A DNA stretch of 64,000 nt from Natrinema salaciae (GCF_900110865.1 NZ_FOFD01000008.1:62001-126000); one strand, 5' to 3'. Shown: positions 9,155-49,139, numbered from the stretch's first letter. Program-made: numbers and translations. The notes: a model not told the origin generated them from the sequence alone.

Positions 9155-10093
9155 ATGAACGAGACGCGACGAGCGATCCTCGAGGCGCTCACGGACGGGC
9201 CGGTCTCGGGGCCGGCGCTGGCCGAGAACCTCGACATCTCGCGGGCGGCCGTCTGGAAACATATCGAAGGCCTCCGCGAGGCGGCGTTCGAGATCGAGAG
9301 CGGCCCGGACGGCTACGAACTCGCGGCCGTCGATGCGTACAACGCCCCGGCGGTCGAGTTCGAACTCGCAGCCCCGTTTTCGGTCGAGTACCACGATTCC
9401 ATCGCGAGTACCAACAACCGAGCGCGGGAACTGGCGGGCGAGGGCGCGACCGACGTCGTCGTCCTCGCGGACGAACAGACCGGCGGCCGTGGCCGCCTCG
9501 AGCGCGAGTGGACGGCGCCGTCGGGCGGCGTCTGGCTGAGTGTCGTCTGCCGGCCCGACATCGCGCCGGCGCGGGCTCCGTTGTACACGCTCGCGATTTC
9601 GGTCGCGACGGCCCGGGCGGCCCGCGAGGCGGGCGTCGACGCGTGGATCAAGTGGCCAAACGACGTGGTCGTCCCCACCGACGACACGGGCGACTACCGC
9701 AAGCTCTCGGGGATCCTGACGGAGATGGAAGGCGAGACCGATCGCGTCGAGTGGATCGTCGTCGGGCCCGGCATCAACGCGAACATCGACGCCGACGCGC
9801 TTCCGGCGGGCGCGACCAGCATCCGCGAGGAGGCGGGTGACGTCGATCGGCGGCGGTTCGTCCAGCGACTGTTAGCGGAGTTCGATCGCTACCGGACCGA
9901 CCTCGAGGCGGTCGTCCCCGCGTGGCGCGAGCTGGCGCTGACGCTCGGCCAGCGCGTGCGAGTCGACCGCCCCGCGGGCGAGCTCGTCGGCGAGGCGGTC
10001 GACGTCACGGGATCGGGCGCGCTCGTGATCGAAACGGACGACGGCCGAGTGACGGTTTCGGCGGGCGACTGCGAGCACTTGCGGCCCGTCTGA
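9155..10093 (+). CDS. birA: BirA: biotin--[acetyl-CoA-carboxylase] ligase with HTH repressor domain
   Basis: 312 aa, a two-domain (group II) BirA. Residues 1-60 form a winged HTH (RRAILEALTDGPVSGPALAE...SRAAVWKHIEGLR). The catalytic domain has the biotinyl-AMP loop GGRGRLEREW near residue 110 and KWPNDVVV near 166, and ends in the C-terminal SH3-like domain (GEAVDVTGSGALVIETDDG). It makes biotinyl-5'-AMP and biotinylates carrier proteins; the HTH suggests it also represses biotin genes. A BirA-like operator lies before bioY at 17449-17480, 7.4 kb away. The ATG at 9155 matches family starts; there is open frame upstream. Confidence 0.93.
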   Translation: MNETRRAILEALTDGPVSGPALAENLDISRAAVWKHIEGLREAAFEIESGPDGYELAAVDAYNAPAVEFELAAPFSVEYHDSIASTNNRARELAGEGATDVVVLADEQTGGRGRLEREWTAPSGGVWLSVVCRPDIAPARAPLYTLAISVATARAAREAGVDAWIKWPNDVVVPTDDTGDYRKLSGILTEMEGETDRVEWIVVGPGINANIDADALPAGATSIREEAGDVDRRRFVQRLLAEFDRYRTDLEAVVPAWRELALTLGQRVRVDRPAGELVGEAVDVTGSGALVIETDDGRVTVSAGDCEHLRPV

Positions 10094-10659: not shown

Positions 10660-10837
10660 GTGATATCATACACCGAACACGTATATCAGCGTTTTCCTGA
10701 CACGACTGACCGTCAATTCGGATGACTGTTTTCCGGGCGGCGGTCGTGCGGTTCGCCGTCGAACGGAGCGGGGAGCGGCCGGCTCGCGAGCGGAGAGAGG
10801 GGAAACGCTGATACAGCCACCGACCCAACCGGGTGCC

Positions 10838-11302
10838 ATGAGCGAGAACCCGTGGACGGATCGGATCGTCGGCGAGCGAATGACCGTCGATCAGGAGTTT
10901 TCGACGCGAATCCAGCAGTCGGAGTTTTCGAACCAGCAGTGGAGCCTGATCATGACCGCCACGGAGTTCGAAATCGAGCATCCCGACGATCCTGACCGGG
11001 CGCGGATCGTCGCTAACACGGACAAGCTCGACGGGGTCATCCCGGAACTCGACAACGTCCAGGCCGGGATGGGCGCGATGGCCGGAGGGGGTGCCGCCGG
11101 CGGCTCGAGCTCCTCGGGCGGCGGCATTTTCGAGACGATCATGGGCGCGCTCGGAATGGGCGGGAACGGCGGTTCCTCCGAGAAAGAGCACCGCGAGGCG
11201 GCCGAACGGCTCACGCAGGAGTACGCCGACGAACTCCAGTCACACCTCGAGTCGAAGGGGAAGTGGGACCGGATTCGGGACACGGCCGCCGACGGCCAGT
11301 AG
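10838..11302 (+). CDS. conserved haloarchaeal protein (DUF5799-like)
   Basis: 154 aa. The conserved part is N-terminal (PWTDRIVGERMTVDQEFSTR, then NQQWSLIMTATEFEIE). A Gly/Ser-rich linker at about residues 76-113 follows and then a charged C-terminal helix (KEHREAAERLTQEYADELQ). I recall this layout as haloarchaeal DUF5799, without being able to check. No catalytic motif, signal peptide or membrane segment is seen. It is soluble, probably cytoplasmic, function unknown. It is monocistronic and convergent with the antitoxin-like gene. Confidence 0.75.
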   Translation: MSENPWTDRIVGERMTVDQEFSTRIQQSEFSNQQWSLIMTATEFEIEHPDDPDRARIVANTDKLDGVIPELDNVQAGMGAMAGGGAAGGSSSSGGGIFETIMGALGMGGNGGSSEKEHREAAERLTQEYADELQSHLESKGKWDRIRDTAADGQ

Positions 11303-42576: not shown

Positions 42577-42759
42577 GTCTTCCTCCGCGTCCGACATCGC
42601 GGCGTTCTCGACGGACGGCAGTTCCTGAGCTTTCGCACGGACTGCATCGGCATTGGACTTCATCAGCGCCGTCGTGTTCCGGACACCCTGCCACGGGAGG
42701 GGACGCCGAATCGGCGCGCCCGAATCGCGGATGTCGATATCTTGATCATCGTCCTGCAA
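42577..42759 (-). pseudogene. leuD: leuD remnant (3-isopropylmalate dehydratase small subunit)
   Basis: On the minus strand, codons read [20 protein letters not shown] then ELPSVENAAMSDAEED. This matches the C-terminus of the intact LeuD at 48504 ([20 protein letters not shown] then [14 protein letters not shown]). The first codons (DIDIRDSGAPIR) resemble the LeuD N-terminus ([13 protein letters not shown]) more weakly, so the remnant may have both ends with the middle deleted. There is no own stop; it reads on into antisense of the HEAT gene. Confidence 0.75.
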
Positions 42760-42914: not shown

Positions 42915-43133
42915 TTACCGATCCCCGTCGATCACCGCCACGTCGTCGGGGTCGGGGCCGATCACGACGCGGTAGTCGCCGTACGCGAAGCGGACCGTGA
43001 CGTCGCCGTTCGACTCGAGCACGGCGGCCAGCGCCTCGGGATCGACGACCTCGTACAGCGGCGGCAGCGCCGATCGATCGCAACCCTCACGGGCCGCGAT
43101 ACGTGCGAGTGCCGTGGCGAGTGCTGGGTGCAT
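42915..43133 (-). CDS. HalOD1 output-domain protein, copy 1
   Basis: 72 aa, a single haloarchaeal HalOD1 domain: LARIAAREGC, then LPPLYEVVDPEALAAVLE and the C-terminal strands VTVRFAYGDYRVVIG. Such domains occur alone or at the end of signalling proteins and are thought to pass a signal on; there is no measured function. The ATG at 43133 lies inside the upstream zinc-ribbon gene, in another frame, with an overlap of 47 bases. It has a near-identical partner at 45006. Confidence 0.8.
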   Translation of the reverse strand: MHPALATALARIAAREGCDRSALPPLYEVVDPEALAAVLESNGDVTVRFAYGDYRVVIGPDPDDVAVIDGDR

Positions 43134-43266
43134 GGTGATCGTCGGGGAGTTCGAAGACCGTCGTCGCGAACGCTGTGCCACAGTCCGGACACGTGACTGG
43201 GTCATCGGTCGTCGCGATACGGACATCGGTACCACAGTCACAGTGAATGGTAATTCTCGAGACCAT
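43087..43266 (-). CDS. zinc-ribbon protein (DUF7560-like), copy 1
   Basis: 59 aa starting MVSRITIHCDCGTDVRIATT, then CPDCGTAFATTVFELPDDHH. Four cysteines in two pairs (CDC and CPDC) form a rubredoxin-like zinc ribbon. I recall haloarchaeal DUF7560 zinc ribbons next to HalOD1 genes. The last 47 bases overlap the HalOD1 gene in another frame, which ties their expression together. The C-terminal residues (STRHGTRTYRG) are probably shaped by that overlap. Confidence 0.75.
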   Translation of the reverse strand: MVSRITIHCDCGTDVRIATTDDPVTCPDCGTAFATTVFELPDDHHAPSTRHGTRTYRGP

Positions 43267-43359
43267 ATCTATCGTGATTTACAGGCCCCGACACGGCGGT
43301 ACACAACCCAGCGAGCGCGTCAGTCACAGCTGCGACTGGTCGGCGGGACGTCGGCACAT

Positions 43360-43367
43360 CTTTATTT
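43360..43367 (+). promoter_or_regulatory. TATA-like element before RNA-like element, copy 1
   Basis: CTTTATTT, conserved exactly in the second copy (45450-45457), about 25 bases before the first hairpin. It points to plus-strand transcription away from the zinc-ribbon gene. Confidence 0.45.
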
Positions 43368-43387
43368 CGCCAACGTCAATGGTGGAT

Positions 43388-43510
43388 TGCTCCCGCGTTG
43401 CGGGGGCGGCGTATGAGCCGGAGTGCTGGTTGGTCCTGGACACTCCGGCTCGGCGCACTTTCGTGCGCATCTTCGCGGTACGCAACCAATCATAAAGAAC
43501 GTTAGGATAT
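43388..43510 (+). ncRNA. candidate structured RNA, copy 1
   Basis: Three hairpins follow the TATA element: CCCGC/GCGGG (43392-43404), an 11-bp stem GAGCCGGAGTG/CACTCCGGCTC (43415-43425 with 43441-43451), and GCGCAC/GTGCGC (43453-43468). Compared with the second copy, an inner 3-bp extension changes from TAG/CTA to TGG/CTG, which keeps pairing as G-U only if the plus strand is the RNA. No plus-strand reading frame is preserved between copies. The 3' end is not defined. Confidence 0.45.
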
Positions 43511-43610
43511 TGACCGGTTGGGCCGGGGTGTCGCCCCCGGGACGAGCGCAGGACGAGGATTTCTCCGGTCGCGTCGTCGTAATCGTCTCCGGTCGCGTCG
43601 ACGAAACCGA

Positions 43611-44357
43611 TCACGGAACGGTCGACAGTTGCTCCTCGAGTTCGTCCGTCGTCGTCCACGAGAAGCACCGGTCCAGCGACTCGAGGTGGACGAGGGAATC
43701 GGTTATCACGCCGCTGTACGACGGCGTTCGACCGCCGAGTTCGGTCTCCACGTAGGACTCGAGGTCCTGCGTCGAGACGTCCAGTTCGTGGTCGCGCGCG
43801 TGGTCGGCGAGCGCAGCGAGTTCCGCGTCGAACTCAGCGGCGTGATACGCCAGTTCGATGGCCCGAGCGCGGATCGCGTCCCGTGTCGTCAGCACGGACT
43901 CGTCGTCGTAGCGTTCCTCCCGCGACCGCGGGAAGAGATACGTGCGCTCGAGCAGCGTCGGCCGTTCGACGCGACCGAACTCGGCGACCGCTCCACCGGT
44001 GTCGTGCTCGAGAATCAGCGGGATCGACTCCGCATAGAGGGCGTGAAGGAAGAACTTCACTTTGAGAGCCGGGACGTCGGCCGACACGTCGAGGTCGGGC
44101 TGGGTGGCGAGCAGGTACGCGTAGGCGTCGTGCCGACGGTTCAGTACGTCGAGCGCCTCGTCGAGACGATACTTGAACGGCGGTTCGTAACTCCCGAGCA
44201 CGAAGTACGTCGAATGCGGCCCGAAGAGGTGTTCGTGTCGCTCTCGCATGTACGAGAGCAGTCGTTCGCTATCCACCGGGTCGAGGTCGACGCCGTAGAG
44301 AACGTCGCTCAGGATGAAGTCCGTGAGTTCGTCGGTGTTCTCCGGTATCTTCGCCAT
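43611..44357 (-). CDS. unrecognised 248-aa protein (gene X)
   Basis: 248 aa, mostly helical, starting MAKIPENTDELTDFILSDVL and including GPHSTYFVLGSYEPPFKYRL and PTLLERTYLFPRSREERYDD. There is no membrane segment, signal peptide or known catalytic motif. It is divergent from an HTH gene, with a palindromic operator in between that overlaps its own start codon region, so it is probably under the control of that regulator. The last 34 codons are duplicated as a remnant at 45679-45785. Function unknown. Confidence 0.75.
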   Translation of the reverse strand: MAKIPENTDELTDFILSDVLYGVDLDPVDSERLLSYMRERHEHLFGPHSTYFVLGSYEPPFKYRLDEALDVLNRRHDAYAYLLATQPDLDVSADVPALKVKFFLHALYAESIPLILEHDTGGAVAEFGRVERPTLLERTYLFPRSREERYDDESVLTTRDAIRARAIELAYHAAEFDAELAALADHARDHELDVSTQDLESYVETELGGRTPSYSGVITDSLVHLESLDRCFSWTTTDELEEQLSTVP

Positions 44358-44361
44358 ACTA

Positions 44362-44397
44362 ACCAGTATGGTAAAATAGCATTATAACCATACTGGT
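44362..44397. promoter_or_regulatory. palindromic operator between divergent gene X and the HTH gene
   Basis: ACCAGTATGGT (44362-44372) and its exact reverse complement ACCATACTGGT (44387-44397) are separated by 14 A/T-rich bases that include a TATA-like ATTATAA. A third half-site, CCATACT, overlaps the gene X start codon at 44354-44360. This is the arrangement expected for a dimeric winged-HTH protein controlling both directions. Confidence 0.7.
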
Positions 44398-44457
44398 CTA
44401 ACTGGGGGAAGTCGAGCCCGTGTACTTATGTGCGCCGCCATCGTACGGTCAGGTACC

Positions 44458-44931
44458 ATGGCCGACATCTCCGCGCAGTCTTCCACTGACCGCGAGGAAA
44501 ATCCCTTAGAGCGCCAGCGTGAGCTGATGGAACTGCTGTCACAGGAAACTCGACACAGCATCGTTCAGGCGCTGCTGGGGCACCCGAAACACCTCGCGTC
44601 GACGGCCGAACTCGACCACTTCGTCCCGAGTAAATCGAAAAAGACCGTCGAAGAGCAACTGGACGTGCTCGTCGACGCGGAGATCCTCGCCCTCTACGAG
44701 TATCCCCCGAACAGGGAAAAGCGCGGCTTGCCGTGGAAGTTCTACGGCGTCACCGAGTACGGCGCTGCCGTCCTCGGGGACTTCAACTACCTCGAGGGCG
44801 TCCCGATGGCGCGAGCCGTCCATCGGAAGACGCGGAAACCCGAGAAAATCGAGCGACACGAAGCGGCCCCGCGACCGCCCCTCCCGGAACCGGTCCGGGC
44901 GACGTTCCGACTCGACGAGGAGACGGACTAA
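44458..44931 (+). CDS. winged-HTH transcriptional regulator (ArsR/PadR-like)
   Basis: 157 aa from ATG 44458 (44428 is an alternative). The HTH is ERQRELMELLSQETRHSIVQALLGHP then LDHFVPSKSKKTVEEQLDVL, with a wing at LYEYPPNREKRGLPWKFYGVTEYG. Many haloarchaeal regulators of this shape control one neighbour. It is divergent from gene X and a palindrome lies in the 100-base gap, so autoregulation and control of gene X are likely. The C-terminal tail is basic, then acidic (RKTRKPEKIERHEA..LDEETD). Confidence 0.82.
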   Translation: MADISAQSSTDREENPLERQRELMELLSQETRHSIVQALLGHPKHLASTAELDHFVPSKSKKTVEEQLDVLVDAEILALYEYPPNREKRGLPWKFYGVTEYGAAVLGDFNYLEGVPMARAVHRKTRKPEKIERHEAAPRPPLPEPVRATFRLDEETD

Positions 44932-45005
44932 CGGCCGGCGCAATCGTCGAGCAACGACGCTCGAGGGAGTCGGGTGGTCGTCGAACGATTCCGATCGCCG
45001 ATCCG

Positions 45006-45224
45006 TTACCGAGCCCCGTCGATCACCGTCACCTCGTGCGGTCCGGGACCGATCACGACGCGGTAGTCGCCGTACGCGAAGCGGACGGTGACGTCCCCGT
45101 TCGACTCGAGCACGGCGGCCAGCGCCTCGGGATCGACGGCCTCGTACAGCGGCGGCAGGGCCGTCGGAGCACAGCCCTCACGGGCCGCGATACGTGCGAG
45201 TGCCGTGACGAGTGCTGGATGCAT
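45006..45224 (-). CDS. HalOD1 output-domain protein, copy 2
   Basis: 72 aa, about 85% identical in appearance to the protein at 42915 (LARIAAREGCAPTALPPLYE then AVDPEALAAVLESNGDVTVR). Changes fall mostly in the loop after GC and at the C-terminus (GPGPHEVTVIDGAR). Both copies keep the reading frame and the overlap with the zinc-ribbon gene, which suggests both are functional. It starts at ATG 45224. Confidence 0.8.
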   Translation of the reverse strand: MHPALVTALARIAAREGCAPTALPPLYEAVDPEALAAVLESNGDVTVRFAYGDYRVVIGPGPHEVTVIDGAR

Positions 45225-45357
45225 GGTGATCGTCGGGGAGTTCGAAGACCGTCGTCGCGAACGCTGTGCCACAGTCCGGACACGTAACCGGGTCGTCGGT
45301 CGTCGCGATACGGACGTCGGTACCACAATCACAGTGGATGGTAATTCTCGAGACCAT
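45178..45357 (-). CDS. zinc-ribbon protein (DUF7560-like), copy 2
   Basis: 59 aa, identical to the copy at 43087 over nearly its whole length (MVSRITIHCDCGTDVRIATT, CPDCGTAFATTVFELPDDHH). Four cysteines are kept. It overlaps the HalOD1 gene by 47 bases in another frame, as in copy 1. A weak TATA-like GTAACCGATC lies upstream on the minus strand. Confidence 0.75.
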   Translation of the reverse strand: MVSRITIHCDCGTDVRIATTDDPVTCPDCGTAFATTVFELPDDHHASSTRHGTRTYRGP

Positions 45358-45478
45358 GTATTGATCGGTTACAGGCCCCAACACAGCGAAACACAATCCA
45401 GCGAACGCGCCGGTCACAGCTACGACTGGTCGGCGGGACGTCGGCACATCTTTATTTCGCCAACGCCAATGGCGGATT

Positions 45479-45602
45479 GCTCCCGCTTCGCGGGGGCGTA
45501 GTCGACGAGCCGGAGTGATAGTTGGTCCTAGGCACTCCGGCTCGGCGCACTTTCGTGCGCATCTGCGCGGTACGCAACCAATCGTAAAGAACGTTAGGAT
45601 AT
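45479..45602 (+). ncRNA. candidate structured RNA, copy 2
   Basis: Same order as copy 1: CCCGC/GCGGG with a changed loop (45482-45494), GAGCCGGAGTG/CACTCCGGCTC (45507-45517 with 45533-45543) extended by TAG/CTA (45519-45521 with 45528-45530), then GCGCAC/GTGCGC (45545-45560). The same TATA-like CTTTATTT is at 45450-45457. Stems are unchanged while loops and spacers differ between copies. Confidence 0.45.
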
Positions 45603-45678
45603 TGACCGGTTGGGCCGGGGGGTGTCCCTCCCGGGACGAGAGTAGGACGAGGATTTCTCCGGACATTGGCGAGACCGA

Positions 45679-45785
45679 TCACGGGACGTTCGACAGTTGC
45701 ACCTCGAGTCCGTCCGTCGTCGTCCACGAAACGCGCCGGTCCAGTGACTCGAGGTGGACGCGGGGATCGAGTATCACGCCGCTGT
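45679..45785 (-). pseudogene. 3' remnant of gene X
   Basis: Minus-strand codons read SGVILDPRVHLESLDRRVSW then TTTDGLEVQLSNVP and stop. They match the end of gene X at 43611 (SGVITDSLVHLESLDRCFSW, TTTDELEEQLSTVP). Everything 5' of this is absent, so it is the edge of the duplicated module. Confidence 0.8.
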
Positions 45786-48503: not shown

Positions 48504-49139
48504 CTATTCGGCTTCCGGGATCGCCGCGTCGTCGACGTAGGGCAGTTCTCGAGCCGTCTCTCGGACTGCGCCGGCGTTGGACTTCATCAGCGCCGTCGTG
48601 TCCCAGACGCCGTCGACGAGGGCCTTGCGCTGGGCGTCGTCGACGGTGACGTCGATGGTTCGATCGCCGTAGGTGACCGTCTCGGCCTCGACGTCGATGT
48701 CGATCTCGCCGTCGGGGTGTTCGTCCACCCACTCCTGCAGGTCCTCGATCGTCTCGCTGTCGGCCGTAACGGTCGGAATACCGAGTGCCAGACAGTTGCC
48801 CGCGAAGATCTCGGCGAAGCTCTCGCCGATGATCGCGTCGATCCCCCAGCGCATCAGGGCCTGGGGTGCGTGCTCGCGCGAGGAGCCACACCCGAAGTTC
48901 GAGTTGACGACCATCACCGAGGAGTCCTGAAACCGGTCCTCGTTGAACGGGTGCTCCTTCTGGTTGTCGTCGTCGTCGAACCGCAGGTCGAAGAACGCGA
49001 ACTCGCCCAGCCCGTCGAAGGTGACGACCTTCATGAACCGCGCGGGGATGATCTGGTCGGTGTCGATGTCGTTGCCCCGAATCGGGACGCCCGAACCGGA
49101 AACGGAGTTGACCTCCGGAATCTCGACGTCGTCCGTCAT
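48504..49139 (-). CDS. leuD: 3-isopropylmalate dehydratase small subunit
   Basis: 211 aa, the swivel-domain subunit that works with LeuC to isomerise isopropylmalate. The signature [20 protein letters not shown] is intact and the opening [21 protein letters not shown] is canonical. Its ATG overlaps the TGA of leuC (ATGA), so the two are coupled. It ends the branched-chain cluster; leuB does not follow. A C-terminal (and perhaps N-terminal) remnant of a second leuD lies at 42577-42759. Confidence 0.95.

Follow-up and report, generated by a model that had tools for sequence, protein, structure and literature searches.

A structured RNA family linked to a zinc-ribbon micro-protein in Halobacteria, with a possible role in copy-specific antisense control

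Cis-antisense control RNAs act through the kissing of stem-loops, for example, RNAI and RNAII of ColE1, CopA and CopT, and RNAII of pMV158. By general knowledge of these systems, the RNA element studied here is similar to them in having a stem-loop RNA, opposing promoter-like elements, a fast-evolving copy-specific loop, and a UUGG (YUNR-type) loop on one or the other strand. Unlike them, it is chromosomal and archaeal, it has three hairpins, it is tied to a zinc-ribbon protein, it shows no sequence relation to them, and its opposing promoter is predicted. Among haloarchaeal RNAs, the closest are the intergenic sRNAs of Haloferax volcanii, such as sRNA132 (PMC6560208), which are likewise small and non-coding and have their own promoter (here predicted); no relation to these sRNAs was shown, and most members of the present family come from Natrialbaceae, with some from a small number of other genera.

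The element adjoins genes for two small proteins. The first, ZnR, is similar to the haloarchaeal C(P)XCG zinc-finger micro-proteins HVO_0758 and HVO_2753 (PMC10716476) in that it has fewer than 70 aa, two short cysteine motifs, and one predicted zinc site, but it forms its own subfamily with a CDCG...CPxC core and a conserved C-terminal G...RGP tail. The second is a stand-alone protein of the HalOD1 family (PF18545), to which DdfA (NF053557) also belongs. The part of Galperin et al. 2018 (PMC5847659) used here reports stand-alone HalOD1 in nearly all halobacterial genomes, with up to 49 copies in one genome and more than 2,000 in total by the 2018 count, and the part of PMC10869688 used here reports that DdfA affects cell shape; these parts of the two papers mention no RNA partner. 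Unlike DdfA, the HalOD1 protein of the module lies below the NF053557 equivalog cut-off (51.5 vs 70 bits).

Layout of the two modules

The window, which is the whole 64,000-nt stretch of Natrinema salaciae DNA that was analysed, contains two copies of the RNA element, both located within the leucine/isoleucine gene region (Table 1). As the preliminary description had stated, CTTTATTT is present in both copies and is followed by three hairpins, the second of which has an identical 11-bp stem. The same description took them for a duplicated non-coding RNA. The RNA itself is supported by the covariation described below, but the copies are not free-standing: each is part of a duplicated block of approximately 0.9 kb that consists of HalOD1 and ZnR on the minus strand, the RNA element on the plus strand, and downstream sequence. 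The two blocks are 89-93% identical, with a start-to-start spacing of approximately 2090 nt.

Table 1. Features of the two module copies (window coordinates; P+, TATA-like box; P-, inward-facing promoter-like block)
Feature	Position	Strand	Remark
Copy 1 of RNA element	43360-43523	+	TATA-like box, then three hairpins, fixed spacing
Copy 1 upstream motif ACGTCGGCA, possible regulator site	43348..43356	+	near-invariant in Natrialbaceae loci, precedes P+
Copy 1 TATA-like box CTTTATTT (P+)	43360..43367	+	constant offset to hairpin 1 (88/90 loci)
Copy 1 hairpin 1, GCTCCCGC / GCGGGGGC	43389..43407	+	conserved U.G pair
Copy 1 hairpin 2, 11-bp stem GAGCCGGAGTG / CACTCCGGCTC	43415..43451	+	compensatory changes in relatives
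Copy 1 hairpin 2 stem arms	43415-43425 with 43441-43451	+	
Copy 1 hairpin 2 apical segment	43426-43440	+	hypervariable part
Copy 1 hairpin 3, GCGCAC TTTC GTGCGC	43453..43468	+	near invariant
Copy 1 P-, plus strand TCATAAAGAACGTTAGGATA	43490..43509	-	minus-strand TATA/BRE-like
Copy 1 ZnR zinc-ribbon micro-protein, 59 aa, divergent from RNA	43087..43266	-	invariant residues; co-occurrence with RNA
Copy 1 HalOD1 protein, 72 aa	42915..43133	-	PF18545 52.4 bits vs cut-off 26.3
Copy 2 of RNA element	45450-45615	+	TATA-like box, then three hairpins, fixed spacing
Copy 2 TATA-like box CTTTATTT (P+)	45450..45457	+	
Copy 2 hairpin 1	45479..45497	+	
Copy 2 hairpin 2	45507..45543	+	stem arms 45507-45517 with 45533-45543
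Copy 2 hairpin 3	45545..45560	+	
Copy 2 P-	45582..45601	-	
Copy 2 ZnR, 59 aa	45178..45357	-	
Copy 2 HalOD1, 72 aa	45006..45224	-	

An operator-like inverted repeat, AACCAGTATGGT ... ACCATACTGGT, was seen at 44360-44405, flanked by a minus-strand gene without family assignment (43611-44357) and a divergent HTH_20-like gene (44428-44931). Copy 2 is followed by what is left of the C-terminal end of the protein encoded at 43611-44357 (45670-45785), so the second module copy appears to be the product of a tandem duplication followed by a deletion. A leuD 3'-end fragment, 80% identical, is found at the far side of the module block (42584-42687 and 48508-48611), which suggests that the tail of leuD was the site of an insertion or a rearrangement. 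Two orthologous chromosomal positions carry modules repeatedly, one beside the pab (folate) genes and one beside the leu genes, across species and, for leu, also across genera (L037-L064 and the window / L049-L057, L109, L112, L113, and L149). In Halopiger djelfimassiliensis (L103), a five-repeat CRISPR array (9662-9965) lies between RNA copies at 9300-9465 and 10787-10952.

Distribution of the RNA and its protein partners

Because two copies alone decide neither strand nor function, homologues were collected. When 29 Natrinema genomes were searched at the DNA level, approximately 30 homologues were obtained, four of them in the window's own genome. With the covariance model R1, built from 29 sequences, 31 of 125 Natrialbaceae genomes proved to contain the RNA, in approximately 85 copies and up to 12 per genome. 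Searches with R1 and with R2, a model that includes remote members, gave approximately ten such remote members, which mostly belong to different families within the order; a few further relatives were gained with R2, and the family comprises approximately 95 members in total. The exact pattern was scanned in 84,980 species, and all 47 loci obtained were from Natrialbaceae, namely Natrinema (N. ejinorense, N. gari, N. pallidum, N. altunense, N. salsiterrestre, and N. mahii among them), Natrialba, Natrarchaeobius, Halopiger, Halobiforma, and one MAG. No copies were found in the viral contigs, phages, and plasmids searched. Rfam 15 at gathering thresholds gave no match on the element in the window or at eight other loci, six of them remote (the hits elsewhere on these sequences were one tRNA and CRISPR repeats), and a relaxed threshold of E up to 10 returned chance-level hits only. 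A full-text search of open-licence papers found no RNA described as linked to HalOD1 or to this ZnR. Since the literature searched was open-licence papers, we only provisionally regard this RNA family of Halobacteria as previously undescribed.

An oppositely transcribed gene for ZnR (approximately 44-60 aa) and/or HalOD1 was found at 86 of the 90 loci. The other four are L125, a copy at a contig edge, and L105, L111, and L145, in which the RNA is present with no recognisable ZnR or HalOD1. In Natrinema, 14 of 29 genomes contain the RNA, and exactly these 14 also contain ZnR; the genomes are related and do not amount to 29 independent tests. Each full ZnR match adjoins an RNA. This one-to-one relation is stronger than the link to a zinc-ribbon/HalOD1 module first proposed. 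Lying back to back at nearly every copy marks the RNA and the zinc-ribbon protein as what is probably one working unit. HalOD1 has 37 copies in the window's own genome and only four of them are in RNA modules, which indicates that ZnR is the specific partner.

ZnR carries CDCG and CPDC(G/E) motifs; C9, C11, G12, C26, C29, G52, G58, and P59 are invariant in 23 homologues, and thus the four cysteines and the C-terminal G...RGP tail are kept. Its zinc-ribbon matches in Pfam and NCBIfam are below cut-off, its zinc binding is predicted, and its structural model is of low confidence (pLDDT 68). A PADLOC match to Cas12f (E 0.0045) was judged to be a generic zinc-ribbon match. HalOD1 meets the PF18545 gathering score (Table 1), and its structure is predicted with confidence (pLDDT 86), but the fold had no match in the PDB (best E 0.59) and therefore gives no biochemical hint. 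HalOD1 starts inside the 3' end of ZnR, with a 44-nt overlap in another frame (42915-43266 and 45006-45357). Conservation of the ZnR tail (...RGP) extends to loci in which no HalOD1 can be recognised, e.g., L119, L132, L140, and L141.

In remote families, a ZnR of 42-44 aa (CxxC ... CxC or CxxC ... YAVTV) stands in the same place at several loci. When a profile of the remote ZnR was searched against 391 genomes, the RNA was adjacent to all of the seven best matches, which is a consistency check rather than an independent test because six of these seven proteins built the profile. Weaker ZnR-like matches are present in many Halobacteria; among the 30 loci examined, the seven best adjoin an RNA and L225 (rank 10) adjoins a truncated one, and the remaining ones mostly belong to other micro-protein families without RNA. 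The genome of L225 is a Natrinema genome that lacks the main type of the RNA, and both its ZnR and the truncated RNA next to it are of the remote type. L224 (G153), and perhaps L223, looks by eye like a decayed remnant. In one further copy of the window's own genome (L047, G000:C3:208613-209178), the RNA and HalOD1 are kept beside a ZnR with lost cysteines and a stop codon, and G019:C24 (L046) shows the same arrangement, with a broken ZnR.

Structure, strand, and promoter-like elements

The plus strand of each copy in the window folded more stably than its shuffles (z approximately -4.8, 0/200), and six diverse members folded 3.7-5.5 sd below theirs. The minus strands folded comparably (z approximately -5.5), as near-palindromic stems would lead one to expect, and thus folding energy alone cannot pick the strand. 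An alignment of 36 sequences and 28 pairs (A4) was examined, which was fitted to the structure and is biased to that extent. In it, 13 of the 28 pairs vary on both sides yet stay paired, compared with 5.1 in shuffles (0/500 reached 13), the covariation score was 0.240 vs 0.153 in shuffles, and 96.3% of cells were paired vs 28-57% when slid. None of 500 shuffled and slid controls equalled the alignment on any of the five measures. The covariation over homologues that the preliminary description had suggested looking for is thus strong. It is clearest in hairpin 2, whose stem is GAGCCGGAG/CTCCGGCTC in Natrialbaceae and GAGAGGGAG/CTCCCTCTC or GAGAAGGAG/CTCCTTCTC in remote loci, and these compensatory changes are visible in the raw sequences despite the fitted alignment. 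By parsimony, hairpins 1-3 underwent 23 compensatory double changes from one Watson-Crick pair to another.

The two wobble sites on which the structure was originally argued are both present, but they are the weakest evidence: TGG/CTG vs TAG/CTA sits in the hypervariable apical segment, and the upstream 4-bp stem (CGTC/GGTG vs CGCC/GGCG) sits in the promoter spacer upstream of hairpin 1 and was left unused. The real evidence is the three stems across approximately 90 homologues. A candidate helix 4 after hairpin 3 (RTYY / GGAT) pairs in Natrialbaceae but cannot form at several of the remote loci. All it shows are transitions, which a G/U-rich partner strand always tolerates, and it was dropped from R2.

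The cells of hairpins 1-3 include 125 G.U and 15 A.C. On the tree, the plus strand gained G.U 37 times and A.C 10 times (two-sided p = 1e-4 including reversals). A plus-strand A.C is a minus-strand G.U, so the excess of G.U on the plus strand indicates that the plus-strand structure is the selected one, in agreement with the strand proposed from the two copies. The U.G pair of hairpin 1 is kept in 71 of 91 copies, and the minus-strand hairpin 1 would have a C.A mismatch in most copies. A conserved protein frame, together with transcripts only on the minus strand, had been named as one observation that would speak against an RNA; no frame was open in more than 58 of the 90 loci, and the coding explanation was rejected. 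The length of the apical segment also differs by single bases between copies. Almost all copies keep the TTTC loop of hairpin 3, and no inversion of it was observed, although this hairpin too is palindromic.

The offset from P+ to hairpin 1 agrees with the usual separation of TATA box and start site in archaea, and hairpin 1 in all likelihood begins at or near +1 of the predicted plus-strand RNA. Remote loci have an AT-rich box at the P+ position (CTATATT, CTAAATC). Beyond hairpin 3, another AT box lies at 21-24 nt in 79 of the 81 scored loci (23-24 nt in 74). On the minus strand of remote loci, this P- reads CCCGAA-N5-TTTATA, close to the published haloarchaeal promoter elements CGAAA (BRE) and TTWT box (PMC4983044). 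In most Natrialbaceae, it reads TTCTTTA[G/C]G, a weaker match without the CGAAA BRE and often without the TTWT box. We consider P-, which like the inverting loop described below goes beyond the preliminary description, to be a putative second, inward-facing promoter. Between P+ and ZnR, no AT-rich promoter box is conserved. Judged from sequence comparison, the element very probably represents a new structured non-coding RNA family of Halobacteria whose transcription starts from the TATA box and follows the plus strand, and which forms one genetic unit with the divergent ZnR (usually ZnR-HalOD1).

The variable loop and a possible antisense control

Natrialba has nine copies that are nearly identical but for the apical segment of hairpin 2, in which they differ. 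In four sets, with inverted copies turned, the divergence of this segment was 0.22-0.31 per site, and in each set it exceeded that of the 4-fold sites of neighbouring genes (0.11-0.26); over the P+ to hairpin 1 stretch the divergence was 0.05-0.08, and over the stretch that runs from the 3' arm of hairpin 2 to P- it was 0.03-0.15. This hypervariability could reflect relaxed constraint rather than diversifying selection. The segment is reverse-complemented in approximately 17 of 85 copies from at least four genera (20 were labelled automatically, and L108, L113, and L121 proved mislabelled on inspection), and the segments of L129 and L130 are identical at 20 of 21 nt after turning. The inversion turns UUGG into CCAA in approximately a fifth of copies.

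We tentatively favour, as an unproven model, that the RNA is an antisense-type switch which controls the ZnR-HalOD1 genes in a copy-specific way. The conserved three-hairpin chassis would present a copy-specific apical loop on hairpin 2. P- would read from beyond hairpin 3 through the hairpins into ZnR-HalOD1, so that the leader of this mRNA would have the plus RNA as its antisense partner, and a loop-loop (kissing) contact would tune the expression copy by copy. Paralogues could then diverge without cross-talk, and ZnR and/or HalOD1 may act back on the two promoters. Both transcripts, the contact, and the regulation are what we infer from the arrangement of conserved elements. Because sense and antisense would come from the same DNA, the loop would be free to mutate or flip with self-recognition kept, and divergence between paralogues is predicted. 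Against this model, P- is weak in most Natrialbaceae, and it is the plus-strand pairing that is selected, whereas the minus-strand hairpin 1 would be mismatched in most copies. The three loci without ZnR or HalOD1 and the two Natrinema copies beside a broken ZnR also count against it, since they suggest that the RNA may have a role beyond the locus that encodes it.

The copies that keep the RNA beside a broken ZnR would suit a trans-acting RNA or RNP, in which the plus RNA binds ZnR (perhaps HalOD1) or others and the hairpin-2 loop pairs with distinct distant targets in each copy. Maintained plus-strand structure, an obligate ZnR partner, and loops that differ between paralogues would all be expected of it. 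Yet inversions from UUGG to CCAA should destroy a fixed target, and no targets were identified; we regard this explanation as somewhat unlikely. For a double-stranded or cruciform DNA element, such as a regulator-binding or recombination site with the hairpins as palindromic DNA, the inversion would be neutral, and the palindromic arms and the two recurrent chromosomal sites (pab and leu) would fit; the bias of G.U over A.C has no explanation in DNA, and the constant spacing between the TATA box and hairpin 1 also speaks against such an element, which we regard as improbable. A structured 5' leader of the ZnR-HalOD1 mRNA on the minus strand (attenuator or riboswitch) could account for a promoter-like block directly beyond hairpin 3 and for the lack of a conserved box between P+ and ZnR. 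A leader should be selected on the strand of its downstream gene, but here pairing is kept with plus-strand wobbles, the bias lies on the opposite strand, and the minus-strand hairpin 1 would be mismatched in most copies, so that we give this explanation little credence, slightly less than the DNA element. A toxin-antitoxin or addiction locus, with ZnR or HalOD1 kept in check by the RNA, would agree with the patchy multi-copy distribution and the duplication, but it is very improbable, as ZnR is hydrophilic and not a hydrophobic type I toxin, PADLOC gave no match above generic zinc ribbons, the plasmids and phages searched lack the family, and partners are lost singly while the locus persists.

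The antisense model is preferred because inversion would deprive a trans-acting RNA of any fixed target and no G.U bias would arise at a DNA site, whereas an antisense pair tolerates both loop change and inversion. As a whole, the RNA family together with copy-specific antisense control of ZnR-HalOD1 is the best explanation we can offer, at a confidence somewhat short of even. Independently of the antisense model, our confidence in the RNA family and in its connection to ZnR is high.

Few archaea-specific structured RNA families have a dedicated protein partner, and the present family has approximately 95 members, covariation, and a one-to-one linkage to ZnR. It offers a testable function for two widespread kinds of haloarchaeal 'dark matter', namely the stand-alone HalOD1 proteins and the zinc-ribbon micro-proteins. 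It is possible, although doubtful, that a conserved RNA chassis with a diversified, invertible loop gives each copy its recognition identity with ZnR as the dedicated RNA partner, which would be a mechanistically new class of copy-specific archaeal RNA regulator. It is unusual for a frozen scaffold to carry a loop that is hypervariable and inverts, and such a loop would open the specificity of antisense RNAs or RNPs in archaea to direct tests.
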